Assembly: GCA_001872165.1 (NCBI GenBank)
Contig: MNXK01000146.1
Location: forward strand, 1 to 12,139
Direction of reading: 5' to 3'
DNA length: 12,139 bases
Source: Anaerolineae bacterium CG2_30_58_95
GTDB taxonomy: Bacteria; Chloroflexota; Anaerolineae; Anaerolineales; Villigracilaceae
The position numbers and the translations under genes were made by a program. Of the stretch, positions 193 to 12,139 are shown one piece after another. The number at the start of each line of letters is the position of its first letter. Positions within the stretch are counted from its first letter, which is position 1. The notes below the pieces were generated by a model. That model did not search any database, was not told the origin of the DNA, and saw nothing but the letters and a program-made list of their open reading frames with translations.

Positions 193-1491
193 ATGGAAAA
201 AATCGCGATCATTGGAGCAGGCTTCGGCGGCATGGCCGCCGCGTACGACCTGGCCAAGGCCAGACACAAGGTCACTATCTACGAAGCCGAGGACTACGTC
301 GGCGGGCTGGCGAGCGGGTTCAAAGAGCCGCATTGGGATTGGTGGGTGGAGAAGTATTACCACCACTGGTTCGCCAGCGACCGGCACATGCTCGGCCTGA
401 TCCGCGAGCTGGGCTGGGAAGATAAGGTGCTCTTCCCGCGCCCGTATACGGTCATGTACCACGAGGGGAAGTTCTACCCGTTCGATTCCATCCTCAAGGC
501 GATCCTCTTCCCCGGCCTGGGCTGGGGCGTGGACAAGATCCGCTTCGGACTGGTCGGGCTGTACCTGCGGCTGACGAACAACTGGAGGCCGCTGGAACAG
601 TTCACCGTAGACGCATGGATGCGCAAATGGGCCGGGGACAAGGTCTACGAGCTGATGTGGCAGCCGCTGGTGGTCGGCAAGTTCGGGGAGCGCTACTACA
701 AGCAGGTCACCATGGCCTGGATGTGGGCGCGGCTCAAGGCGCGGACGACGCGCCTGGGCACGTTCGAGGGCGGCTTCCAAAATTTCGCGGACATGTTCGC
801 GGATCGGTTGCGCGAGATGGGCGTCGAGATCCGCCTCCAGACGCCGGTCACGCGCATCGAGCGGGAAGCAGGCTCAAGTCAGGTGAGCGTCCGCAGTGAG
901 GTGACTGAGGTGTATGACCAAGCCCTGGTCACGCTCTCGCCCGAAGCGATGACTCGGCTTGTCCCGTCTTTACCCGAAGAATATTTACACGGGCTGCGGA
1001 GCATGAAGTCCATGGGCGCGGTGGTGATGGTACTGGCGCTCGAGCACCAACTCTCGGAGGAAGGCTACTACTGGTACAACCTGCCCAAGTCGGCGGGCTA
1101 CCCGTTCCTGGCGCTGGTGGAGCATACCAACTACGTGGGGGCGGAGCACTTCGGCGGCGACCGCATCGTTTACATGGGCGATTACCTGGAGCCGGAGCAC
1201 GAGTTCTTCCGCCTGAGCCAGGAGGAGCTGCTGGAACGGTTCCTGCCCGCATTGAAGAAGTTCAACCCGAAGTTCGAGCGGGACTGGGTGCGCAAGGCCT
1301 GGCTGTTCCGCACAGGTTACGCCCAGCCGGTGCCGCGGGTGGGACATTCGCAGAACATCCCGCCGATTGCAACGCCAGTAGAGGGAGTGTATTTTGCTTC
1401 GATGAGCCAGGTCTATCCCTGGGATCGGGGGACGAATTTTGCGGTGGAGATTGGGCGGCGGGCGGCGAGGATGATGAGCAGTGAACAGTGA
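193..1491 (+). CDS. FAD-dependent amine-oxidase/protoporphyrinogen-oxidase-like oxidoreductase
   Basis: A 432-residue flavoprotein of the NAD(P)/FAD-dependent amine oxidase superfamily. The N-terminus is a textbook FAD Rossmann site: a GAGFGG dinucleotide loop at residues 8-13, the ribose-binding acid E31 and the downstream GG pair at 37-38. The C-terminus (about 395-428, VYFASMSQVYPWDRGTNFAVEIG) matches the second FAD-contacting segment of this superfamily. The length is normal and there are no membrane segments or signal peptide, so it should be cytosolic. The substrate cannot be read from the sequence. Relatives act on porphyrinogens, carotenoids, hydroxysqualene or amines, and some sit in polysaccharide clusters. 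The ATG at 193 follows a GGAAG ribosome-binding site at 183-187 and the Rossmann strand begins immediately after it. The last codons and the stop lie inside a CAGT-type repeat, so the C-terminal tail may have been set by the repeat. Superfamily sure, function unknown. Confidence 0.88.
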   Translation: MEKIAIIGAGFGGMAAAYDLAKARHKVTIYEAEDYVGGLASGFKEPHWDWWVEKYYHHWFASDRHMLGLIRELGWEDKVLFPRPYTVMYHEGKFYPFDSILKAILFPGLGWGVDKIRFGLVGLYLRLTNNWRPLEQFTVDAWMRKWAGDKVYELMWQPLVVGKFGERYYKQVTMAWMWARLKARTTRLGTFEGGFQNFADMFADRLREMGVEIRLQTPVTRIEREAGSSQVSVRSEVTEVYDQALVTLSPEAMTRLVPSLPEEYLHGLRSMKSMGAVVMVLALEHQLSEEGYYWYNLPKSAGYPFLALVEHTNYVGAEHFGGDRIVYMGDYLEPEHEFFRLSQEELLERFLPALKKFNPKFERDWVRKAWLFRTGYAQPVPRVGHSQNIPPIATPVEGVYFASMSQVYPWDRGTNFAVEIGRRAARMMSSEQ

Positions 1492-1506
1492 TCAGTAATC
1501 AGTAAA
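1477..1506. repeat. CAGT-rich short repeat overlapping a stop codon
   Basis: A run of near-identical units of the type CAGTGAtCAGTaATCAGT begins inside the last four codons of the flavoprotein gene and supplies its TGA stop. The same kind of CAGT units fills the spacer between the two tRNA-Ala genes at 11715-11813. This suggests a dispersed repeat family in this genome rather than chance. Confidence 0.5.
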
Positions 1507-1510
1507 AGTT

Positions 1511-3681: not shown

Positions 3682-3776
3682 GGAGACGGGAATTGGACAC
3701 CTCCAACTTGCTCATCACTGTCTCCTCCTTTGGCGAACGCCTCCGCCGGGTGCTTACCCAGCGGAGGCTGTTTTTT
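3682..3776 (+). ncRNA. Candidate small non-coding RNA with intrinsic terminator
   Basis: Seven bases after a TATGAT -10-like box (3670-3675), a run starting GGAGAC shows consistent secondary structure. GGAGAC at 3682-3687 pairs with GTCTCC at 3720-3725. Inside that, TTGGA at 3693-3697 pairs with TCCAA at 3702-3706 around CACC. A linker follows, then an intrinsic terminator. It lies in the gap between two converging genes, with no plus-strand gene for another 1.6 kb, so it is not an obvious riboswitch leader. The -35 is weak. It resembles no RNA family I recognise: it lacks the 4.5S/SRP tetraloop core and is too short for 6S or tmRNA. Alternative: it is merely the 3' end of the ssb-cluster transcript. 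Confidence 0.45.
3739..3776 (+). terminator. Strong intrinsic terminator
   Basis: GCCTCCGC (3739-3746) pairs with GCGGAGGC (3761-3768). Across one C/A mismatch the stem continues as GGGT (3748-3751) with ACCC (3756-3759) around a GCTT loop. TG and then six Ts (3771-3776) follow. This is a textbook rho-independent terminator for plus-strand transcripts. It ends either the proposed sRNA or read-through from the ssb cluster 150 bases upstream. Confidence 0.85.
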
Positions 3777-3802
3777 ATGGTAGCCCGAAGTCAGGCTACC
3801 AT
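3777..3802. repeat. Hairpin repeat, copy 1
   Basis: A perfect 9-bp inverted repeat (ATGGTAGCC at 3777-3785, GGCTACCAT at 3794-3802) encloses CGAAGTCA. It directly abuts the T-run of the terminator. Four relatives occur in this window (10718, 11201, 11614, 11746). Copy 2 at 10718 differs at only two of 26 bases. Confidence 0.8.
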
Positions 3803-3846
3803 TACTGGAGGGTTCCCCTTCGCATGTGGATGCTCGAATCCAGGGT

Positions 3847-5310
3847 CTAAGAAGAGCGGGCCATTACAGCCTCTGTGCGATAAGCTGGCAGTACGACCGT
3901 AAACGTGGTGCCCTGCCCGATGACCGAATCCACCCAGATGCGGCCTTCGTGATTATCCACAATTGACTTGACAATGGCCAGGCCGAGGCCTGATCCTGGC
4001 ACAGCCACCGCAACGTTGCTGGCGCGGTAGAACTTGTCGAAGATGTGCGGCTGGTCGGCAGGTGGAATGCCCGGGCCGGTATCCGAGATGCGCAGGATAA
4101 CTTGTTCGCCTTTCGCCTCGACGCTCACCGAGATGTCGCCTCCCTCGGGTGTATATTTTATGGAATTTCCTATCAGGTTATCGAGCATCTGCCGCAAGTG
4201 GATTGGGTCGCCTTGCAGAGAGGGGAGATGAGGAGCCAGATCGAGATGCAGGTGCTGCTTCTTTGCAGCGATCTGGTTGTTCAGGTTGTCCAGGGTGTAG
4301 TTGAGAATGCCATCCAGCGGGACGATCTCCTTCTGACCCTCGAACCCGCTCTCGATGCGGCCCAGGTCCAGCAAATCGTTGACCAGACCGGTGATGTTGT
4401 GCACGCTGATCCGTACACGTTGGATGAATTCCCGCTGCTGGTCGGTGAGCGGCCCGACGCGATCCAGCAGGTCAACATAGCCCAGAATAGCCGTCAACGG
4501 CGAGCGCAGATCGTGCGAAACGGTGTGAACGAAATCGCTCTTCATCTGGTCAATTCGCTTGAAATAGGTGATATCCTGCATCGTAATGGCAACACCGATG
4601 TCAGGGATGCGTGTGTATTGGGCATTGAAGACGCGGCCATCTTCGAAGCCAATCTCGTAGAACTGCAACGGATTGGTTGAAGTAGAATCGAGCAGCGAGC
4701 GCAAGTCGGGATGCGCGATCACCTCCAGAACGTTTTGACCTGAAATTTCCTTCTGCCCTAAATCAAATGCCCTCCTCACGACCGGGTTCATCAGGAGAAT
4801 CCGGTTGTCGCTATCCAGGATCATCACTCCATCTTCGATGTGCGTGAAGATGGTTTCCAGTTTTTGCAGTTCGTTGATGCGTTTCTCCAGCGAAGCAGTC
4901 GTGCGCCGGACCTCGCGCCGGGTCCAGTCACCGATGCGCTGGGCACGCTTGAGGCTGTTTTCCACGATGCGCATGATGTCGTCAATCCGCAGCGGCGGGG
5001 TAAGGATGTCGCTGACTCCCACCCGCAGCGCATCTTTGATGAACGTCGGCGAGTCCTGAGTGGCGAACAGAAGAATGGGCAGGGTTGGGAAACGTTCGAG
5101 CAGGTTGGAAGAGATTTCTATCCCACTGGCATCTTTGAACTTATCACTGATGATCAACAACGCTGGAGAGGTTTCCTGCAACACCTTATCAAGCGCGGCC
5201 CGGTCGCGGGCGAATGCCACCTGATAGGATGCAGCCGCCAGCGCCCGTTCGAATAACGGCAAAATATCAGGATTATCCAGGGCCAGCAAAACGAGGTCAG
5301 ATTTCGGCAT
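3847..5310 (-). CDS. Soluble hybrid sensor histidine kinase (receiver-PAS-HisKA-HATPase)
   Basis: A 487-residue kinase with no membrane segment, so it should sense an intracellular or partner signal. Order: receiver-like domain (about 1-120), coiled-coil linker (130-152), PAS domain (about 152-250), HisKA with phospho-accepting H266 in SHDLRSP, and HATPase_c with N-box N378/N382, G1 box DTGPGI (410-415), F-box around F424-F427 and G2 box GSGLG (439-443). The catalytic half looks fully active. The receiver looks degenerate: the usual phospho-Asp position reads S55 (with D56 next to it), the usual Lys reads P105, and the N-terminal acidic pair is reduced. It may therefore be a phosphorylation-independent interaction module. 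ATG at 5310 has GGTGAG just upstream. No response regulator gene is adjacent. The divergent glucosidase is the only nearby candidate target. Confidence 0.93.
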   Translation of the reverse strand: MPKSDLVLLALDNPDILPLFERALAAASYQVAFARDRAALDKVLQETSPALLIISDKFKDASGIEISSNLLERFPTLPILLFATQDSPTFIKDALRVGVSDILTPPLRIDDIMRIVENSLKRAQRIGDWTRREVRRTTASLEKRINELQKLETIFTHIEDGVMILDSDNRILLMNPVVRRAFDLGQKEISGQNVLEVIAHPDLRSLLDSTSTNPLQFYEIGFEDGRVFNAQYTRIPDIGVAITMQDITYFKRIDQMKSDFVHTVSHDLRSPLTAILGYVDLLDRVGPLTDQQREFIQRVRISVHNITGLVNDLLDLGRIESGFEGQKEIVPLDGILNYTLDNLNNQIAAKKQHLHLDLAPHLPSLQGDPIHLRQMLDNLIGNSIKYTPEGGDISVSVEAKGEQVILRISDTGPGIPPADQPHIFDKFYRASNVAVAVPGSGLGLAIVKSIVDNHEGRIWVDSVIGQGTTFTVVLPAYRTEAVMARSS

Positions 5311-5367
5311 TGGCTCACCAGTTTGTCAAAGGTTTATTCGTGGCCTTCATACCTCAATGATAGCACG

Positions 5368-5395
5368 CTTATACAAAAATTGGTGAAAGTGTCAT
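5368..5395 (-). promoter_or_regulatory. Promoter of the sensor kinase gene
   Basis: Read on the minus strand, ATGACA (5395-5390) and TATAAG (5373-5368) each match the sigma-70 consensus at 5 of 6 positions, with a 16-base spacer. Transcription would start near 5361 and give a leader of about 50 nt. The -35 region interleaves with the opposite promoter for the glucosidase. Confidence 0.6.
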
Positions 5396-5410
5396 CTTAG
5401 TGTAAAATAA
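5380..5410 (+). promoter_or_regulatory. Promoter of the alpha-glucosidase gene
   Basis: TTGGTG (5380-5385) and TAAAAT (5403-5408) are spaced 17 bases apart. The -10 lies in TAGTGTAAAATAA, identical to the 13-mer before ssb. The -35 is weak (3 of 6), so an activator may be needed. The leader would be about 30 nt. Confidence 0.5.
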
Positions 5411-5443
5411 TATCACATTTGCCAAGAACCCCGAAAGGAAAAT

Positions 5444-7075
5444 ATGGACGATTATCTCTGGTGGCGCGACGGCATCATCTACCAAATCTACCCGCGCTCC
5501 TTCGCTGACAGCAACGGCGACGGCCTCGGCGACCTGCCCGGCATCACGGCGCGTCTCGATTACCTTGCCGAGCTTGGCATTGACGCCATCTGGCTTTCCC
5601 CTTTCTATCCCACGCCCGATGCTGATTTCGGTTACGATGTCAGCGATCACACCGCCGTGGACCCGCGTTTCGGCACGCTGGAGGACTTCGACCGGCTGGC
5701 GGCCGAGTCGCACCGGCGCGGCATCCGCGTCGTTCTGGACCTGGTGCTGAATCACACCTCCGACCGGCATCCCTGGTTCCGCGAATCCCGCGCCAGCCGC
5801 GATAATCCGAAGCGCGACTGGTATATCTGGCAGCCCCCCTCCCGCTCTCCGAGGGGGGGCCCCAACAACTGGCAGGCTGCCTTCGGCGGCCCCGCCTGGG
5901 ACTACGACGAAACCACCGGCCAGTACTACTTGCACATGTTCCTGGCCGAACAGCCGGATGTCAACTGGCGCAACCCGGAGGTGCGCAAGGCGCAGCTCGA
6001 CGTGGTGCGCTTCTGGCTGGCGCGCGGCGCGGACGGCTTCCGCCTGGACGTGTTCAACGCCTACTTCAAGGATGCCCAATTTCGGAATAACCCTCCCAAG
6101 TTCGGCTTGCGCGGCTTCGACCGCCAGCGTCACCTCTACGATTGCGACCAGCCGGAAATGATCCCGTTGCTCAACGAGCTGCGCACCATCCTGGATGCTT
6201 ATCCTGAGCGCTACGCCGTCGGTGAGACATTTTTCGCCACGCCCGAAAAAGTGCTGCACTACAGCGGCCCTGACCGCCTTCACGCCGCTTTTAGCTTCGA
6301 TTTCAACTCCTCCGGCTTACGCTACCCGTGGAATCCTGCCTGGCTGCTCAAACAGATCCAACGCCGGGAAGCGCTCTTCACTGGCGAGCACTGGCCCACG
6401 ACCGTCCTCAGCAACCACGACATCTCGCGCACAGCGACGCGTTACACGCATGGCGAGCAGGATGCGCTCGCCAAAATCGCCATGGCGCTGTTGCTCACCT
6501 TGCGCGGCACACCTTTCTTGTACTATGGCGAGGAGATCGGCATGCGCGATGTTCCCCTGCGCCGCGGCGAGATCATGGATCCGCCCGGCAAGCGCTACTG
6601 GCCGATTTTCAAAGGCCGGGACGGCTGTCGCTCTCCCATGCAGTGGGATGACACGCCTTTCGCCGGTTTCTCGCTTAGCAAAGTTCAGGGCAGGCCTTGG
6701 CTGCCCGTGCACCCGAATTACCATCAGCGCAACGTGGCCGCTCAAAACGAAGACCCAGACTCGCTGCTCAATTTCACCCGGAAACTGATCGCCTTGCGAA
6801 AAGAGTGCCCGGCCCTGCGGCGCGGCGAATTCGTTCCATTGACAACCAGGCCGCGCGATGCCCTCGTCTATCTACGCCGCACAGATGATCAAACCGTGCT
6901 AGTGGCCTTGAATTTTGCAAACAAAACAATCAGGGCCGCGTGTACGCCCCCTCTACCAGAGGATTGGCAGCTCCTCTTTTCCACTTCCGGCGCAGACCTG
7001 CCGCATGTGAATGGAAAAAACATCGAATTGGCCCCTTATGAGGTGTGTATTCTGGAAGTAAAAACGGGGCGTTGA
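5444..7075 (+). CDS. GH13 alpha-glucosidase (oligo-1,6-glucosidase type)
   Basis: A 543-residue glycoside hydrolase family 13 enzyme that releases glucose from the non-reducing ends of short alpha-glucans. It opens with the exo-glucosidase signature WWRDGIIYQIYPRSFADSNGDG. The catalytic triad is visible: nucleophile D202 in GFRLDVFN, acid/base E261 in VGETF and transition-state D326 in SNHD. Region I is DLVLNH at 99-104. Valine directly after the nucleophile is typical of enzymes accepting alpha-1,6 links, so isomaltose-type substrates are possible, though alpha-1,4 activity cannot be excluded. No signal peptide is seen, so it is cytosolic and needs imported oligosaccharides, but no transporter is in the window. 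The ATG follows AGGAA at 5436-5440. The loop around residues 131-140 is encoded by a GC palindrome and may be repeat-derived. Confidence 0.94.
   Translation: MDDYLWWRDGIIYQIYPRSFADSNGDGLGDLPGITARLDYLAELGIDAIWLSPFYPTPDADFGYDVSDHTAVDPRFGTLEDFDRLAAESHRRGIRVVLDLVLNHTSDRHPWFRESRASRDNPKRDWYIWQPPSRSPRGGPNNWQAAFGGPAWDYDETTGQYYLHMFLAEQPDVNWRNPEVRKAQLDVVRFWLARGADGFRLDVFNAYFKDAQFRNNPPKFGLRGFDRQRHLYDCDQPEMIPLLNELRTILDAYPERYAVGETFFATPEKVLHYSGPDRLHAAFSFDFNSSGLRYPWNPAWLLKQIQRREALFTGEHWPTTVLSNHDISRTATRYTHGEQDALAKIAMALLLTLRGTPFLYYGEEIGMRDVPLRRGEIMDPPGKRYWPIFKGRDGCRSPMQWDDTPFAGFSLSKVQGRPWLPVHPNYHQRNVAAQNEDPDSLLNFTRKLIALRKECPALRRGEFVPLTTRPRDALVYLRRTDDQTVLVALNFANKTIRAACTPPLPEDWQLLFSTSGADLPHVNGKNIELAPYEVCILEVKTGR
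5834..5858. repeat. GC palindrome inside the glucosidase gene
   Basis: CCCCCCTC (5834-5841) is the reverse complement of GAGGGGGG (5851-5858), leaving a 9-base loop. It encodes the PPSRSPRGG stretch at a surface loop where family members vary in length. It shares the TCCGAG core with the hairpin at 1511-1540. Confidence 0.5.
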
Positions 7076-7184
7076 TTCTATCGCTGAATGTGCCGCCTCC
7101 AGAACCAGGCCTGCGGTTAAACGTTGGGGCGAGGCAGCCCCCTTTGGGTGTGCTTCACGAAGATCACGCTCCAATAAACCGATT

Positions 7185-7206
7185 TGTGTTACAATTGCAA
7201 TACACA
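7185..7206. promoter_or_regulatory. Putative operator/promoter of the toxin-antitoxin pair
   Basis: TGTGT (7185-7189) and ACACA (7202-7206) form an inverted repeat symmetric about 7195.5. Between them lie the small palindromes CAATTG (7192-7197) and ATTGCAAT (7194-7201). TACAAT at 7190-7195 could be the -10. It sits 17 bases before the antitoxin start, where RelB/DinJ proteins commonly bind to repress their own operon. The preceding gap from 7076 holds only a GGGGC/GCCCC hairpin (7126-7141) of no clear role. Confidence 0.45.
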
Positions 7207-7222
7207 CAGAAACGGAGGAAGT

Positions 7223-7483
7223 ATGACCAAGACCGCTGCCATTACCGTGCGCTTGGATCAGCAGGTGAAGAAGGAAGCTCAGGCCGTGCTGGATGAATTG
7301 GGGTTGACCACCACGCAAGCGGTAAGCCTGTTCTTCAAGCAGATCAGTTTGAACAAGGGCCTGCCCTTCGCAGTGGAAATCCCCAACGAGGAAACCATCC
7401 AGGCCATCGAGGACGGGTTGAACAGGCGCAACGTAAGAACCTTCGAAGACGCTGAAGCTGCGCTCGCTTACCTGGGACTGTAA
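7223..7483 (+). CDS. Type II antitoxin, RelB/DinJ family
   Basis: An 86-residue antitoxin. Residues 5-50 form a ribbon-helix-helix domain of RelB/DinJ type: the DNA-contacting strand AAITVRLD, a helix with VKKEAQAVLDELG, then TTTQAVSLFFKQI, followed by the family hallmark LPF. The C-terminal half (PNEETIQAIEDGLNRRNVRTFEDAEAAL) matches the part that wraps the toxin. I place the start at 7223, not at the longer in-frame option at 7184, because GGAGGA at 7214-7219 precedes it and the family begins at this point. The upstream extension would cover the operator. The protein should neutralise the adjacent toxin and repress the operon. Confidence 0.92.
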   Translation: MTKTAAITVRLDQQVKKEAQAVLDELGLTTTQAVSLFFKQISLNKGLPFAVEIPNEETIQAIEDGLNRRNVRTFEDAEAALAYLGL

Positions 7484-7485
7484 TC

Positions 7486-7755
7486 ATGCGTAAGGTCACG
7501 ATTACGTCGCAGTTCGAGAAAGATGTCGAACGCGCCAGGAAGCGCAACTACGATAGGTGCAAGCTGAGCGCTGTCATCCGGTTGCTGGGCCAGGGGAACC
7601 TGGAAAATCGTCAATACCGGGACCACCCGCTGAAAGGGAAGTATAACGGTTTGCGCGAGTGCCACTTGACTCCGGACTGGTTGTTGATCTACCAATCTTT
7701 CACCGATCACGTCATTTTAGTCAGAACCGGCACGCACGCGGACTTGTTTCGGTAA
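7486..7755 (+). CDS. yafQ: Type II toxin, YafQ-family mRNA interferase
   Basis: An 89-residue RelE-fold ribonuclease toxin. The residues that define the YafQ active site are all present at the expected spacing: H47 (DHPLKG), H60 and D64 (CHLTPDW), H84 and F88 (THADLF). YafQ enzymes cut mRNA on translating ribosomes. It begins two bases after the antitoxin stop with no strong ribosome-binding site of its own, so translation is probably coupled to the antitoxin. The gene looks intact, with full family length and no frameshift. Converging with the lipoprotein gene, it ends 44 bases before that gene's stop. Confidence 0.93.
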   Translation: MRKVTITSQFEKDVERARKRNYDRCKLSAVIRLLGQGNLENRQYRDHPLKGKYNGLRECHLTPDWLLIYQSFTDHVILVRTGTHADLFR

Positions 7756-7783
7756 GTTCTGGGGCGCAAAAAGACACCCTGGG

Positions 7784-7799
7784 AGTGGAAATTTCCACT
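7784..7799. terminator. Perfect 16-base palindrome between converging genes
   Basis: AGTGGAAATTTCCACT is perfectly self-complementary and lies directly next to the lipoprotein stop (7800-7802). On the minus strand a TCTTTTT tract follows about 10 bases later, so it could act as part of a terminator for the lipoprotein. On the plus strand only TTTA follows. Confidence 0.45.
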
Positions 7800-9011
7800 T
7801 TACGGACATATATCTTCCAGCGTGTAATCTGGATTAGCGTAACCAAATGCTGCTGAACCGAGCGGGAACAGGATTTGACCGGCATGGGTCTCGGCGAAAT
7901 AACGCGCCGCCGGGCAACCGTGACCGGCGATTGCAACCCCTTGCAGGTAAGTATCGGCCATTTCGGTGTAATCACGCCAATTGCCGGCTGTTGGGCCGGC
8001 TTTCAACTCACTGAAGCAGCGCTCTGCCTCGTCCGGTTGACCAGACTGCGTGTAAAGCACGATCAGCTTGAAACGCGCGTATGCGCCCAGGTCCGCCTGC
8101 TCGAGCGGTGGATCAATCCAATCCAGCAATGTCCGGTCGTTGATGACGCGCTGGTACAAAACGATGGCAGTCTCATAGTCCCCTACCTCGAAAGCCGCGT
8201 CGGCGTCGTGCAGGGCATGGATGCGGTAGCGCGGCGGCTCCAGCGTCTCGCCGCTCACCTTCCAGCGGCCGCTGGCCGGGTCGTAGCTCCAGGCGCGGGT
8301 GCGGACACGGTACGGCCCCGCCCCAACCGAGCCGAAGCCGGTACCGGTCACGTCCAAGGCATAAATCCCGTCTCCCGTGTCGCGCATCTTTACGTCTGGA
8401 TAGGGCAGATCGTCGCTCGCGCCCTCCAGCAAATTCTCATACGTCGCCCCGTTCCAGGCCAGAACCTGTTCCTGCTCGAAGCAGGTGGACGCGCCGCAGG
8501 TGCTGGTGCTCACCACCGCCTCGGCCTTGCCATCCGCGTTCATATCCTGCACGAAATGAATGGTAGGCGCGCCGTAATAGGCAGAATCGGGCGTCAGGTC
8601 AAAAGTCAGCACATACTGCCCGGCCTGGCAGTTATAGATCAACAACGTGCCAAGCGGTGGTACAGTCTCGCCATCTGATGAAGTCACCGCGACGAGCACA
8701 TCGCCCTTCCCATCGCCGGTCAGGTCGCCTGCCTCTGCATGGCTGCGATCCGTGTTCAGGGCAACAAGTTCCCCACCACTGTTCAGATAGTTCAAGACTG
8801 CCTGCGGGTATTCTGCAAAACCGGCTGGGGAGGGTGGTTCGTGCGCCTGGGCAGGGACACACAACCCCTCGTCCGGCGTGGACCGGATCGGGGTCGAAGA
8901 AGGCAGCAGCGAAGCATTCGTTGGCGGCGAAGCAGTCGGCACGGGAAGCAACTTTGGCGACCCGCAAGCCGTCAAAACGGCCAAAAGAGCGAGGGCAAGA
9001 ATACGTCTCAT
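7800..9011 (-). CDS. Lipoprotein with FG-GAP-like Ca-binding loops and TPR-like tail
   Basis: A 403-residue predicted lipoprotein. The start has a short basic end (MRR), a hydrophobic core and the lipobox LTAC with lipidated C16. A Pro/Ser/Thr-rich stalk (about 20-62) then spaces the domain from the membrane. Two calcium-loop motifs, DLTGDGKGD (96-104) and DMNADGKAE (156-164), mark FG-GAP/VCBS-type blades as found in extracellular adhesion or lectin-like proteins. The region 264-336 (AAFEVGDYETAIVLYQRVI, LIVLYTQSGQPDEAERCF) reads like two TPR helix pairs. I do not recognise a defined function. A surface scaffold or binding role is likely. The start at 9011 is favoured by an AGGAGG site (9016-9021 on the plus strand) and by the signal peptide. 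A longer in-frame start at 9062 lacks both. Confidence 0.85.
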   Translation of the reverse strand: MRRILALALLAVLTACGSPKLLPVPTASPPTNASLLPSSTPIRSTPDEGLCVPAQAHEPPSPAGFAEYPQAVLNYLNSGGELVALNTDRSHAEAGDLTGDGKGDVLVAVTSSDGETVPPLGTLLIYNCQAGQYVLTFDLTPDSAYYGAPTIHFVQDMNADGKAEAVVSTSTCGASTCFEQEQVLAWNGATYENLLEGASDDLPYPDVKMRDTGDGIYALDVTGTGFGSVGAGPYRVRTRAWSYDPASGRWKVSGETLEPPRYRIHALHDADAAFEVGDYETAIVLYQRVINDRTLLDWIDPPLEQADLGAYARFKLIVLYTQSGQPDEAERCFSELKAGPTAGNWRDYTEMADTYLQGVAIAGHGCPAARYFAETHAGQILFPLGSAAFGYANPDYTLEDICP

Positions 9012-9045
9012 AATGCCTCCTGCGGAGCATTCGTTGTCAGGGGGG

Positions 9046-9073
9046 TTGCATTTTTCTCCCAAACCATTATACT
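9046..9073 (+). promoter_or_regulatory. Promoter of the methylase-like gene
   Basis: TTGCAT (9046-9051) and TATACT (9068-9073) with a 16-base spacer form a good sigma-70 type promoter. The expected start of transcription (about 9080) falls at the ATG at 9082, implying a leaderless mRNA. The absence of any ribosome-binding site before 9082 agrees. Confidence 0.55.
9066..9071 (-). promoter_or_regulatory. -10 box of the lipoprotein gene
   Basis: Reading the minus strand gives a perfect TATAAT at 9071-9066, 54 bases before the lipoprotein start. It shares four bases with the plus-strand -10 box TATACT. No good minus-strand -35 is visible. Confidence 0.5.
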
Positions 9074-9081
9074 AAGAATTG

Positions 9082-11454
9082 ATGAATATTCTCTCGGCCT
9101 TGCCTTTCATTCCAGGGGATGAAACAGGACATCCAGAGCCGCTGGCGCGTTACCTGCCGCCCGTGCCGGAGGGCGTCGCCGCGGCGTTCCTGGCGGAACA
9201 TGCCCGACCCCTCGACAGCACTTCGGCAGGGTTTCGACAGGCCTTCGGCGTGAGCGCTCAGGCGAACGCTCAACCTGCCAACTCAGTGCAACGGCTCGGG
9301 GCAACGCCTGGCGCCTGGGTGCTGGACCCGTTCGGGGCCTCCCCCCGGCTGGCGGTCGAGATGGCGCGCGCCGGTTATCGCGTGCTGGTAGCCGTCAACA
9401 ACCCGGTGACGCGCTTCCTGCTGGATTTAGCTGCCGCGCCGCCTCCCAGGTCCGAGCTGCAGGCCGCGCTGGCCGACCTGGCTGATTCCCGCAAAGGCGA
9501 AGAACGGCTGGAAACCCATCTACAATCCCTGTACCTTACCGATTGCCCCAGCTGCCAGCGCAGCATCCCGGCAGAGACCTTCGTCTGGGAACACGGCGGC
9601 GAAGCGCCGGTGGCGCGCATTTTCCGTTGCCCACAATGCGGGGAAAGCGGCGAGCGAGGCGTCACGCAGGCAGACCGGGAACGCGCCGGTCAACTGGCTG
9701 CCACGGCGGCCCTGCACCGTTCGCGCGCCCTCGAACGGGTGGCCGCCCGCGACGACCCCGACCGGGAGCACGCCGAAGAAGCCCTGGCATGTTACCTGCC
9801 GCGCGCCGTCTATGCCCTGATCACCATCATCAACAGGCTGGACGGCCTGGCGCTCTCGCCCGAACGGCGCCGCTGCCTGCTGGCCCTGACCCTGACCGCC
9901 TGCGACGAGGGCAACACCCTCTGGCCGCATCCGGCGGAACGGCCGCGCCCGAAGCAGTTGACCATCCCGCCGCGCTTCCGCGAGAACAATCTCTGGCTGG
10001 CGCTCGAAAGGGGCGTGGATGTCTGGGCTGGCGAGGCGCCGCCCGTGCCAGTAACGATCTGGCCTGCGCCGCCTCCCGAAAGCGGGGGCATTTGCCTGTT
10101 CGAAGGCCCGCTGCGTGAGCTGGCGCCGCGCCTCAAAGAGACACCCATCCAGGTCGTCTTGACCGCCCTGCCGCGCCCCAACCAGGCCTTCTGGACCCTC
10201 TCGGCTTTGTGGTCTGGTTGGCTGTGGGGGCGCAAAGCGGTCGGCCCGTTCAAGCACGTTCTGCGCCGCCGCCGTTATGACTGGAACTGGCACGCCGGCG
10301 CGCTGTACGCGGCGTTCAAAAACCTTGCCCCGCACATTCCACTCGGCGCGCCGCTCTTTATGCTGACCGCCGAGCCGGAACCATCCTTCCTCTCCGCCGT
10401 GATGCTGGCAACCGCCTCCGCCGGTTTCGATTTGCAAGGCATCGCCATCCGCACCCGGCACGACCCGATCCAACTCCTCTGGCAGCGGCGAGCCTTCACG
10501 CTCCGACCTACAGAAGGGTTTGACCCCTCTTCAGCCGGCCAAGCCATGCAAGCCTATCTGAAGGAACGCGGCGAACCGGTCACTTATCTGCACCTGCACG
10601 CGGCCGGCCTCTCCGCTTTGGCTGAGAATCACGCCCTGGCCTGGCGCGAAGAGGCGCTAGCGCAAATCCACGCGCCGATCCAGGAGGCGCTTGCCTCGAA
10701 GGCTTACGTCCGCCACGATGGTAGCCCGAAATCAGGCTACCACGTTGGTAGTCCGCACAGCCTGGAGGTCGGGTTATGGGGATTGCACGAATATGCCCAG
10801 GAGAGTGACTCGTTGCCTGACCGGGTGGAAATGGCTGCCGTCCAATTCCTGCAAAAGCATCCCGTGTGCACACAGCGCGAACTGGAAACAAGCCTGAACG
10901 CTGAATTCCCCGGCTTGTTCACCCCCTCGCTCGGACTGATCAAGGAAATACTGGCTTCCTATGCGACCGAATCGAATGGACGGTGGCACCTGCGCCCCGA
11001 AGATTCCGCCTCGGTGCGCCACGCCGACCTGGAGGCGGCCGGCCGCGCATTGGAGGCCCTCGCCGCCCAACTGGAATATCGCCTCGTCCGGCCCGAAGGT
11101 GCTCATCGCTTGTTGCTGTGGCAGGAAAAAGGGAAAACGGCCTATGCCTTCACCCTGTTGGCCTCAGCGGTCGTCGGCCGGATCCTGCGTGAGAACCTTT
11201 ATGGTAGCCGATTGCGCTACCATTATCCACCCGAGCGCAGTCTGCTGGTAATCCCTGGCGGGCGCGTTGGCCTGCTGACCTGCAAGTTGCACCGCGATCC
11301 TGCGTTGGATCAAATCTGGCAGGGAGGCTGGCGCGTGCTCAAATTCCGTCACCTGCGGAGGCTGGCTGAGATAGCGAGTCTAACGCGCGAGAACTGGGGG
11401 CGAGAACTGAGCAGCGATCCCATCGAGCCTCCGGAGCAGATGAAGATGTTCTGA
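9082..11454 (+). CDS. DNA adenine-methylase-like protein with zinc ribbon, catalytic motif degenerate
   Basis: A 790-residue protein organised like large N6-adenine/COG1743-type DNA methylases. LDPFGASP (81-88) replaces the SAM-binding DPFAGSG motif. VNNP (about 105-108) stands where the ribose-binding acidic motif is expected. A four-cysteine zinc ribbon is formed by C155, C158, C183 and C186. The segment VLTALPRPNQAFW (about 359-371) takes the place of VTDPPYxD, so the catalytic Asp-Pro-Pro-Tyr is lost. The part after about 530 is unrecognised and contains winged-helix-like stretches. Three palindromic elements lie inside the reading frame (9218-9289, 10718-10751, 11201-11223), yet the frame stays open. 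ATG 9082 is preferred to TTG 9079. Possible roles: a dead methylase used as a DNA-binding scaffold, or a diverged enzyme. No restriction gene is adjacent. Methylase ancestry moderately sure, activity doubtful. Confidence 0.6.
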   Translation: MNILSALPFIPGDETGHPEPLARYLPPVPEGVAAAFLAEHARPLDSTSAGFRQAFGVSAQANAQPANSVQRLGATPGAWVLDPFGASPRLAVEMARAGYRVLVAVNNPVTRFLLDLAAAPPPRSELQAALADLADSRKGEERLETHLQSLYLTDCPSCQRSIPAETFVWEHGGEAPVARIFRCPQCGESGERGVTQADRERAGQLAATAALHRSRALERVAARDDPDREHAEEALACYLPRAVYALITIINRLDGLALSPERRRCLLALTLTACDEGNTLWPHPAERPRPKQLTIPPRFRENNLWLALERGVDVWAGEAPPVPVTIWPAPPPESGGICLFEGPLRELAPRLKETPIQVVLTALPRPNQAFWTLSALWSGWLWGRKAVGPFKHVLRRRRYDWNWHAGALYAAFKNLAPHIPLGAPLFMLTAEPEPSFLSAVMLATASAGFDLQGIAIRTRHDPIQLLWQRRAFTLRPTEGFDPSSAGQAMQAYLKERGEPVTYLHLHAAGLSALAENHALAWREEALAQIHAPIQEALASKAYVRHDGSPKSGYHVGSPHSLEVGLWGLHEYAQESDSLPDRVEMAAVQFLQKHPVCTQRELETSLNAEFPGLFTPSLGLIKEILASYATESNGRWHLRPEDSASVRHADLEAAGRALEALAAQLEYRLVRPEGAHRLLLWQEKGKTAYAFTLLASAVVGRILRENLYGSRLRYHYPPERSLLVIPGGRVGLLTCKLHRDPALDQIWQGGWRVLKFRHLRRLAEIASLTRENWGRELSSDPIEPPEQMKMF
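9218..9289. repeat. Nested inverted repeat inside the methylase-like gene
   Basis: GCACT/AGTGC (9218-9222, 9285-9289) enclose GGCAGG/CCTGCC (9225-9230, 9274-9279), which enclose TGAGCG/CGCTCA (9251-9256, 9267-9272). The block encodes a low-complexity Ser/Ala/Gln stretch (about residues 46-70) just before the SAM-site motif. TTCGACAGG-type words in it resemble common dispersed bacterial repeats. Confidence 0.5.
10718..10751. repeat. Hairpin repeat, copy 2 (in coding sequence)
   Basis: TGGTAGCC (10719-10726) pairs with GGCTACCA (10735-10742) around CGAAATCA. A third arm TGGTAG (10746-10751) can instead pair with CTACCA (10737-10742). Over its 26 core bases it matches copy 1 except at two positions. 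In the reading frame it encodes GSPKSGYH followed by VGS. Confidence 0.75.
11201..11223. repeat. Hairpin repeat, copy 3 (in coding sequence)
   Basis: A perfect 8-bp inverted repeat (ATGGTAGC at 11201-11208, GCTACCAT at 11216-11223) with loop CGATTGC. It encodes YGSRLRYHY in the methylase-like protein. Copy 4 at 11614 is nearly its exact reverse complement, loop included. Confidence 0.75.
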
Positions 11455-11470
11455 CAGGCGCATTCGGGAG

Positions 11471-11515
11471 GCGCGGCAGGATGTAGAGCGAAATTAATTT
11501 CGCATTACGCCGCGC
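11471..11515. terminator. Compound palindrome after the methylase-like gene
   Basis: GCGCGGC (11471-11477) pairs with GCCGCGC (11509-11515). Between them lies the perfect 16-base palindrome GCGAAATTAATTTCGC (11488-11503). No T-run follows, so it is a structured 3' end or an extruding palindrome more than a classical terminator. Confidence 0.45.
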
Positions 11516-11571
11516 GGCATCCATGATTTTCGCACATTTCGTGTGATATACTTTCCCTGCGCGGCGTTTAC

Positions 11572-11600
11572 TTGACAGGCCACTAGCCCTCAAGTAGAAT
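11572..11600 (+). promoter_or_regulatory. Promoter of the tRNA-Ala pair
   Basis: A perfect -35 TTGACA (11572-11577), a 17-base spacer and TAGAAT (11595-11600) form the strongest promoter in the window. Transcription should start near 11607, 35 bases before the first tRNA. Confidence 0.85.
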
Positions 11601-11613
11601 ACCCGCACCCGAA

Positions 11614-11636
11614 ATGGTAGCGCAATCGGCTACCCT
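11614..11636. repeat. Hairpin repeat, copy 4 (tRNA leader)
   Basis: GGTAGC (11616-11621) pairs with GCTACC (11629-11634) around GCAATCG. The outer bases have decayed (CCT in place of CCAT). It lies wholly in the 5' leader of the pre-tRNA, ending five bases before the mature tRNA. Confidence 0.7.
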
Positions 11637-11641
11637 AAACC

Positions 11642-11714
11642 GGGCCTGTAGCGCAGTTGGGAGCGCGCTTCAATCGCACTGAAGAGGTCGCGGGTTCGAA
11701 TCCCGCCAGGTCCA
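11642..11714 (+). tRNA. tRNA-Ala(CGC)
   Basis: The full 73-nt cloverleaf folds: acceptor GGGCCTG with CAGGTCC, D stem GCGC/GCGC, anticodon stem CTTCA/TGAAG, T arm GCGGG-TTCGAAT-CCCGC, discriminator A. The anticodon CGC is at 11675-11677. The G3-U70 wobble, the main alanine identity element, is present, confirming Ala. The 3' CCA is not encoded. The 32/38 pair is A/C, an unusual combination. Confidence 0.95.
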
Positions 11715-11813
11715 CTGTTCAGTGACCAGTATTCAGTCATCAGTAATGGTTGCGCAGTCAGCAACCATAATCAGTCATTGAACACTGGCGACTGAAAACT
11801 GATTACTGGAAAT
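11715..11813. repeat. Palindromic CAGT-repeat spacer between the tRNAs
   Basis: The whole 99-base spacer is an imperfect inverted repeat. Its outer arms (11716-11736 against 11778-11798) match at 16 of 21 positions, and the centre is hairpin copy 5. The arms consist of CAGT units like those at 1477-1506. Confidence 0.7.
11746..11768. repeat. Hairpin repeat, copy 5
   Basis: A perfect 8-bp stem, ATGGTTGC (11746-11753) with GCAACCAT (11761-11768), loop GCAGTCA. Relative to the other copies an A-T pair is changed to T-A on both arms, a compensatory change that preserves the hairpin. Confidence 0.75.
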
Positions 11814-11886
11814 GGGCCCATAGCGCAGTTGGGAGCGCGTCTCAATGGCATTGAGAAGGTCGAGAGTTCGAATCTCTCTGGGTCCA
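11814..11886 (+). tRNA. tRNA-Ala(GGC)
   Basis: A 73-nt cloverleaf: acceptor GGGCCCA with TGGGTCC, D stem GCGC/GCGC, anticodon stem TCTCA/TGAGA, T arm GAGAG-TTCGAAT-CTCTC, discriminator A. The anticodon GGC is at 11847-11849. G3-U70 is present. Positions 32/38 are A/U, the pair known to be conserved in tRNA-Ala(GGC) for decoding accuracy. CCA is not encoded. It is probably co-transcribed with the CGC tRNA 99 bases upstream. Confidence 0.95.
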
Positions 11887-11894
11887 CACAGCAT

Positions 11895-11989
11895 AGACCC
11901 TAAAGGTTTTTCTGGCAAGCCGGTAAGCATTTTGCCGGGAAAACCTGCTTGAAAAGAGCATGAGATCTCTAAGGAAACCTTTAGGGTCT
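11895..11989. repeat. 95-bp element with perfect 15-bp inverted ends
   Basis: AGACCCTAAAGGTTT (11895-11909) and AAACCTTTAGGGTCT (11975-11989) are exact reverse complements. The 65-base interior has further pairing (CCGG/CCGG, GGCAA/TTGCC). TTTCT follows the right arm, so it could terminate the tRNA transcript, but the length and perfect ends suggest a miniature mobile or REP-like element. No clear target duplication flanks it. Confidence 0.65.
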
Positions 11990-12139
11990 TTCTAAAGTCA
12001 CAGCAGGAGTAGTAGGTCATCCCGCCAGCGAGAAGGGAGAGTGAGGTGGAAGCCCTTCGACGGTATCCACGGGAATACCAGAAGATCGAACTCGCCTGCT
12101 GCCCGCAAGGGAGACTGCGCTGGTGAACATTCACGTAAG
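11990..12139. other. Unassigned window end
   Basis: I recognise no gene here. Several short inverted repeats are present: GTGGA/TCCAC (12046-12050, 12066-12070), GGTAT/ATACC (12062-12066, 12075-12079) and CAGCAGG/CCTGCTG (12001-12007, 12095-12101). One plus frame is open from 11996 to the end without an ATG. A 26-codon frame starts at GTG 12046 and stops at 12126. It could be the start of a repeat, a structured RNA or a gene continuing outside. Confidence 0.3.

Follow-up and report, generated by a model that had tools for sequence, protein, structure and literature searches.

We report here that five small hairpins in a stretch of DNA from Anaerolineae bacterium CG2_30_58_95 (12,139 nucleotides, contig MNXK01000146.1, here C242; the whole stretch is called the window) belong to a family of palindromes of the form T-GGTHGC-interior-GCDACC-A, mostly 18–24 bp long with rare members of 38–45 bp. 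That the palindrome is mobile and arrives with a 3-bp duplication is well supported, and the hairpins are very probably copies of an ultra-short, non-coding mobile element that enters with a 3-bp stagger at TWA, presumably through an enzyme acting in trans. The genome containing the window, G000 (1.47 Mb, 243 contigs, 67% complete), was compared with the other members of its genus, G001, G002, and G003. The window copies are as follows.

Copy 1: 3775..3804, no strand assigned; 24-bp palindrome TGGTAGCC-CGAAGTCA-GGCTACCA at 3778-3801, intergenic; flanks TTA (3775-3777) and TTA (3802-3804); predicted hairpin -7.2 kcal/mol.
Copy 2: 10716..10745, + strand; 24-bp palindrome TGGTAGCC-CGAAATCA-GGCTACCA at 10719-10742; flanks CGA (10716-10718) and CGT (10743-10745), an imperfect repeat.
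Copy 3: 11199..11225, + strand; 21-bp palindrome TGGTAGC-CGATTGC-GCTACCA at 11202-11222; flanks TTA (11199-11201) and TTA (11223-11225).
Copy 4: 11612..11638, + strand; TGGTAGC-GCAATCG-GCTACCC at 11615-11635 (terminal A changed to C), 5' of tRNA-Ala(cgc); flanks AAA and TAA, no triplet match.
Copy 5: 11744..11770, + strand; 21-bp palindrome TGGTTGC-GCAGTCA-GCAACCA at 11747-11767; flanks TAA (11744-11746) and TAA (11768-11770), within CAGTGATCAGT-type repeats between two tRNA-Ala genes.

Inspection of the window found all five hairpins where a first-pass annotation had placed them, and DNA hairpin folding is predicted for each (-4.7 to -7.2 kcal/mol). They are also more numerous than chance would allow: GGTAGCN{4,14}GCTACC matches the window four times, against 0.01 times in shuffled sequence, and copy 5, in which the same base pair is indeed changed on both arms (GGTTGC/GCAACC) with the stem kept, is the fifth. 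The full arms ATGGTAGC and GCTACCAT, described as common to all copies, are found only in copies 1 and 3; the right arm is GCTACCAC in copy 2 and GCTACCCT in copy 4, and copy 5 has the T arm. The loop, given as 7–10 bases, is 7 nt long in copies 3-5 when measured between the 6-bp core arms; in copies 1 and 2 it is 10 nt, or 8 nt if GGTAGCC/GGCTACC are regarded as the arms. The unit that pairs is TGGTHGC..GCDACCA, and in copies 1-3 and 5 the A in front of it belongs to the target triplet as its final base; copies 1 and 2 represent a 24-bp form and copies 3-5 a 21-bp form.

Genome pattern counts were controlled with the pattern written backward. The 19-mer core GGTNGCGYNNTYRGCNACC occurs exactly at 70 sites in G000 and with one mismatch at 15 more (control 0), and GGTWGCN{4,14}GCWACC occurs at 94 sites (control 22); these controls and the shuffles rule out chance palindromes. 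Among 203 copies collected from G000-G003, 196 are bounded by the outer T..A, and lengths including these two bases are 21 bp (125 copies), 24 bp (29), 20 bp (22), and 18, 19, 22, 23 or 25 bp in the remaining 20, with longer members of 38, 39 and 45 bp. A 38-bp member in G001 (L145:1000-1037) lies beside an open reading frame (ORF) read as ribosomal protein S12; the corresponding site holds three 21-bp copies in G000 and a single one in G002. At the variable position of the arms the base is A, T or C, and seldom G. The arms are complementary in 70/70 exact G000 cores, though the pattern leaves two N positions free, in 16/18 cases in G003, and in 198/216 TGGxyGC..GCyxCCA units within stretches chosen around copies.

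Particular palindromes recur: 28 of 118 distinct sequences are present at two or more of 173 sites, and 17 of the 118 are repeated within a single genome (at up to five sites in G000), although some of the latter have similar flanks, such as four copies on contig C183 of G003, and may be parts of longer repeats. Because the same interior is found at several sites, the short form itself multiplies, and this counts against the idea that the palindromes are what a larger insertion sequence with identical ends left behind on excision or after internal deletion. That idea would account for the fixed ends, the interiors of variable length (18–25 and 38–45 bp, the members of 38, 39 and 45 bp included) and the 3-bp duplication, but no full-length parent was seen in a sample of about 1.12 Mb covering part of the genomes, and we consider it unlikely.

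The duplication is seen directly in the flanks. Equal triplets lie on both sides of 73 of 118 isolated copies, a set that includes a few orthologous pairs from two genomes and so is not wholly independent, whereas shuffling the right flanks among copies gave 20.4 +/- 3.6 such matches, with a maximum of 38 in 20,000 permutations; inverted identity of the triplets was found in only 6 of the 118. The duplicated triplets are TAA (27), TTA (24), TGA (8), TCA (3), and eight others (11 in all). With both strands counted, the target context reads cNA-TWA-TNg, a procedure that forces palindromic counts around the target but does not force the TWA centre.

Empty sites in relatives provide a second line of evidence. 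Each flank of 169 sites was searched separately against partial sequence of the other three genus members, yielding 62 comparisons, of which 20 (16 distinct sites) were empty, with limits of -8 to +6 set for this class, 13 were occupied at equal length, and 29 were other. The net length of the empty sites was -3 in 17 cases, -4 in two, and -6 in one (an array of two), with none at 0. One comparison, L235/L308, is probably a coding coincidence rather than an orthologous copy. In the window, copies 1, 2 and 3 have clean empty sites in G003, the clearest being copy 3, where the window has CCTTTA-[TGGTAGCCGATTGCGCTACCA]-TTATCC and G003 has CCTTTATCC. The site of copy 1 shows a net -4, made up of the triplet and one base of a T-run. 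Copies 2 and 3 are in-frame insertions of 27 bp (nine codons) and 24 bp (eight codons), respectively, in the same 791-aa ORF, each with a net -3 in G001, G002 and G003, copy 2 being absent in all three. Copy 4 is also present in G003, there with a changed left arm and loop, and copy 5 lies in a repeat-rich region that gives no clean alignment with G003 and hence no clean empty site. The first-pass annotation had proposed an active or formerly active palindromic element and had named fixation at orthologous sites, or a copy number no higher than in random sequence, as findings that would speak against it; the empty sites of copies 1-3 in G003, and a copy number far above control, uphold the proposal. 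To this picture the comparison of genomes adds the 3-bp target duplication, the in-frame 24/27-bp unit, the tandem arrays and the limitation to one genus.

These results also bear on whether the palindromes are regulatory operators or RNA structures conserved by selection, as might be suggested by the copies near tRNA genes or ribosomal-protein-like ORFs and by the identical palindromes at two sites shared by two species (L013/L227, L096/L136). We regard this as scarcely credible: copies are often not conserved in position, their target triplets are duplicated, variation in the arms is paired, the only Rfam matches in the window are the two tRNAs, and copies also lie within ORFs. A Pfam search of ten copy-containing ORFs (eight from G000, two from G003) gave seven matches above the cut-off, to GIDA, glycosyltransferase, trimethylamine methyltransferase, trigger factor, DnaB_2, transglycosylase and UvrD-helicase, while two of the other three had no Pfam match and one only a sub-threshold match. 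In the GidA-type gene the copy falls within the GIDA domain match and the site is empty in G003; in the glycosyltransferase, methyltransferase and trigger factor ORFs it falls outside the matched domain.

The family also varies between relatives at shared sites. Tandem arrays of palindrome plus 3 bp, with a period of 24, make up 26 of 173 sites; 41 of 44 array spacers are 3 nt long, and 14 of the 26 arrays contain identical copies. Orthologous copy numbers differ, being 4 versus 2 (L002/L140), 3 versus 1 (L055/L146), 3 versus 2 (L150/L078), and 2, 1 and empty (L058, L305, L245). At other shared sites the loop is flipped (L212/L134, and L145/L057, where the arms are altered too) or the interior is replaced at the same place (L142/L265, L058/L305, L241/L078), which may reflect either turnover of the resident copy or a second insertion, the site being a favoured one. 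Template switching during replication (quasi-palindrome mutagenesis), in which palindromes would arise de novo without any movement, could explain the complementary arms, the flipped loops and the position of copy 2 beside a resident TGGCAGC. Yet the same loop sequences are met again at unrelated sites and in several of the genomes, the extra length equals the palindrome plus 3 bp, and TWA is preferred; as the sole source of the family this process is distinctly improbable, while it may act as a secondary process beside movement.

The family is restricted to the genus. Counts of the loose pattern in 101 genomes were 109 in G003, 94 in G000, 36 in G002 and 30 in G001, and 0–29 in the other 97 (highest in G005, G072 and G027, with 29, 24 and 23), where the control was usually higher; the T..A-bounded pattern gave 0 in G005, 31 in G001 and 39 in G002. 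Among 396 genomes of the class, drawn without G001 and G003, the 21-mer occurred 68 times in G000, 19 times in G002, and once in each of 10 others, against 7 control matches altogether. Nine of these ten single matches have G-type or unpaired arms, and one (in G030, of the same family) has paired T arms. The 21-bp form outside the genus is thus at control level and the family is genus-wide, and the two surveys rule out a widespread Anaerolineae repeat. A tandem-pattern search of a genome collection returned two Anaerolineales metagenome-assembled genomes (PFL50 and Yes70-19, probably G003 and G002) and one unrelated match, in Frigoribacterium (L114), which was rejected for its resemblance to coding sequence and for the unpaired arms of its first unit.

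Members are also carried by three IMG/VR contigs, predicted phage, next to phage structural genes: beside a major head protein in L334, at two places among head and tail genes in L335, and in a terminase-portal-head module in L347. Two 24-mer viral matches (L348, L349) have loops unlike the family and were not counted as members, and a 20-mer viral scan found none. It is conceivable, if rather doubtful, that the element is a bare hairpin without a larger parent transposon, which travels as a folded single strand with its arms templating each other and is carried between hosts by phages. Arm bases would then change yet stay complementary, loops would flip or be exchanged, and gap filling would give the 3-bp duplication.

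On the mobile-palindrome reading that we prefer, a trans-acting enzyme, most likely a DDE-type transposase with a 3-bp stagger, would join the two identical ends to the target. Arrays might lengthen when the 24-bp direct repeat slips and when new copies insert next to resident ones, and extrusion of the hairpin would allow one arm to correct the other and the loop to flip, which would preserve the complementarity of the arms even as interiors change. A host function would not be needed, and insertions of 24 or 27 bp, which keep the frame in coding DNA, could be tolerated. The enzyme, the single- or double-stranded nature of the intermediate, and the cause of the arm co-variation are parts of this scheme that we infer.

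Several observations weigh against it. Among the isolated copies, 45 of 118 have no perfect triplet match; two further rows of the empty-site comparison, at net -9, fell outside the limits, and in some empty-site rows the flank alignments fall short by as much as 11 nt. One subset, marked by T or C arms and by an AAG triplet that lies 5' of a GYNNTYR loop, seems to enter as a 24-nt unit with AAG on one side and the target not duplicated (L015:1501 versus L258; L099:2361 versus L293; the second unit at C11 versus L125). This subset may insert without duplication, which one simple target-site duplication mechanism does not explain; and because entry of this type also gives net -3, that value alone does not prove duplication, whereas the repeated triplets do. 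A search of about 1.12 Mb, overlaps included, recognised no longer element (up to 4 kb) that combines the same ends and a perfect triplet with its own gene: 21 candidates were mostly arrays, with two single palindromes (39 and 45 bp) and six pairs more than 1 kb apart, of which three are bounded on each side by mini-copies and three show only the 7-bp match. Among genes neighbouring the copies, the 15 largest clusters include no conspicuous transposase-like gene. In G000-G003 there are three rve matches and 11 weak, partial or interrupted DDE_Tnp_1 matches, and none of these 14 loci has TGGYNGC ends 300–3000 bp apart with a matching triplet; four Y1_Tnp loci likewise lack them, save for a 39-bp member that lies in frame inside one such gene of G000. 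The ends used by transposases are, moreover, usually longer than a bare 18–24-bp substrate.

The Y1_Tnp genes are relevant to a further alternative, that the palindromes are members of a REP family moved by a RAYT, a Y1 tyrosine transposase. Their size is REP-like, stem-loops with alternative complementary stem bases have also been described for REPs, GTAG is present inside the A-type arm, and all four genus members have Y1_Tnp genes; passages of PMC3733652 report GTAG repeats in Chloroflexi and tolerated variation of the GTAG tag. This explanation is nonetheless very unlikely, as there is no unpaired GTAG or CGTC tag outside the stem, GTAG being in the paired arm and replaced by GTTG or GTCG in many copies, and the flanking triplet is duplicated. 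Y1_Tnp is found in 21/21 genomes searched and the family is not, and family copies flank none of the four Y1_Tnp loci inspected, one per genome from 14 genus matches.

Scanning 782 kb of G002 and G003 for hairpins de novo yielded 280 and 294, compared with 287 and 208 after shuffling; the outward-extension rule that was applied hides the TGGTHGC family, so that the scan says little about it. Hairpins in G002 that start with GCGG have equal triplets in five of eight cases, but were rejected as target-site duplications because their fixed flanks suggest a longer repeat. Besides the TGGTHGC family, G002 carries a second kind of hairpin repeat, GTTGCGGAATGAATTCCGCGTTAC-like and unrelated in sequence to the family, in five copies whose flanks are fixed (L273:18273, L274:2999, L281:7967, L283:15248 and 15304).

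Other features of the window are the following.

791-aa ORF: 9079..11454, + strand; target of copies 2 and 3; matches in 35 of 40 other genomes searched, no Pfam match.
Two tRNA-Ala genes: 11642-11715 and 11814-11887, + strand; copy 4 lies before the first and copy 5 between them.

In the N-terminal part of the 791-aa ORF (window 9200-9300), G000 has a CCTTCGACAGGC...AACCTGCC-like stretch, where aligned G001 and G002 have other sequence and G003 has none. A second repeat family, of CAGTGATCAGTAATCAGT-type repeats, occupies window positions 1475-1507 and 11717-11810, with the palindrome nested inside, and is also found around the element in phage contig L347 (4880-5010). A long inverted repeat, AGACCCTAAAGGTTT...AAACCTTTAGGGTCT, follows the second tRNA-Ala gene (11890-11990), and a RelB/YafQ-type toxin-antitoxin pair with Pfam matches lies at 7223-7755.

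In searches of an open-access collection that includes few subscription papers, no listed paper described the family, and six exact element sequences matched no paper. If our interpretation is true, about 20 bp of palindrome is enough for mobility with a clean target-site duplication, close to the smallest size expected to permit transposition, and it is a source of in-frame insertions of eight and nine codons in a conserved ORF. Since its empty sites, its preferred target and the length of its duplication have been established here, the family would offer a tractable case for the spread of tiny repeats, both the bacterial SDRs and REPs and the hairpins of mitochondria.

The cyanobacterial SDRs, reportedly described by Elhai et al. 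in 2008 in Genome Research, are similar in being about 20 nt long, dispersed, mobile, and single or tandem; we compare them only as cited elsewhere. Passages of other papers cite SDRs as repeats of about 20 bp thought to be possibly mobile (as cited in PMC2884548) and SDR5 as entering HIP1 at one exact position (as cited in PMC4390886). Insertion into HIP1 (GCGATCGC) is not found here, the target triplet being mostly TWA with a 3-bp duplication, and the present family differs further in its TGGTHGC palindrome, its Chloroflexota host, its paired arm variation and its variable interior. REP and REPIN sequences with their RAYTs are alike in being short palindromes in genus- or species-restricted families, with clusters and complementary stem variants (passages of PMC3733652 and PMC3116915), whereas the family has a single hairpin rather than a REP doublet, no unpaired tag, a duplicated triplet, and no element-flanked RAYT among those inspected. 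Mitochondrial hairpin elements, namely yeast GC clusters and double-hairpin elements, are likewise tiny and probably mobile; according to passages of PMC2800124, the movement of yeast GC clusters is believed to resemble that of DNA transposons, and the Allomyces elements are without flanking duplications. The family described here has, in contrast, a bacterial host, defined ends, a 3-bp duplication, and members in phage contigs.

The features of a bacterial miniature inverted-repeat transposable element (MITE), namely terminal inverted repeats, no coding capacity, and target-site duplications with empty sites, are all found here, with the AAG subset looking different, and MITEs are presumably moved in trans, as we suggest for the palindromes. 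An autonomous IS sharing their ends, a further mark of MITEs, was seen neither in the stretches searched, which cover part of the genomes (G000 itself being 67% complete), nor at the rve and DDE_Tnp_1 loci scanned. MITEs are several times longer, and the palindrome consists essentially of two inverted repeats and a loop. The PIF/Harbinger-IS5 elements prefer TWA or TNA within a palindromic target. The 3-bp TWA duplication is shared with them (TAA or TTA in 51 of the 73 duplicated triplets), and part of PMC12730594 gives 3-bp target-site duplications for canonical Harbinger and treats it together with the IS5 family. The resemblance is to the target only, as ends and size differ and no transposase or longer element was found. 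By the tag test the family is not a REP family; it is a MITE in the broad sense, and no named family matches it in full. By analogy, its movement would work like that of an SDR or a MITE, and its choice of target like that of Harbinger/IS5.

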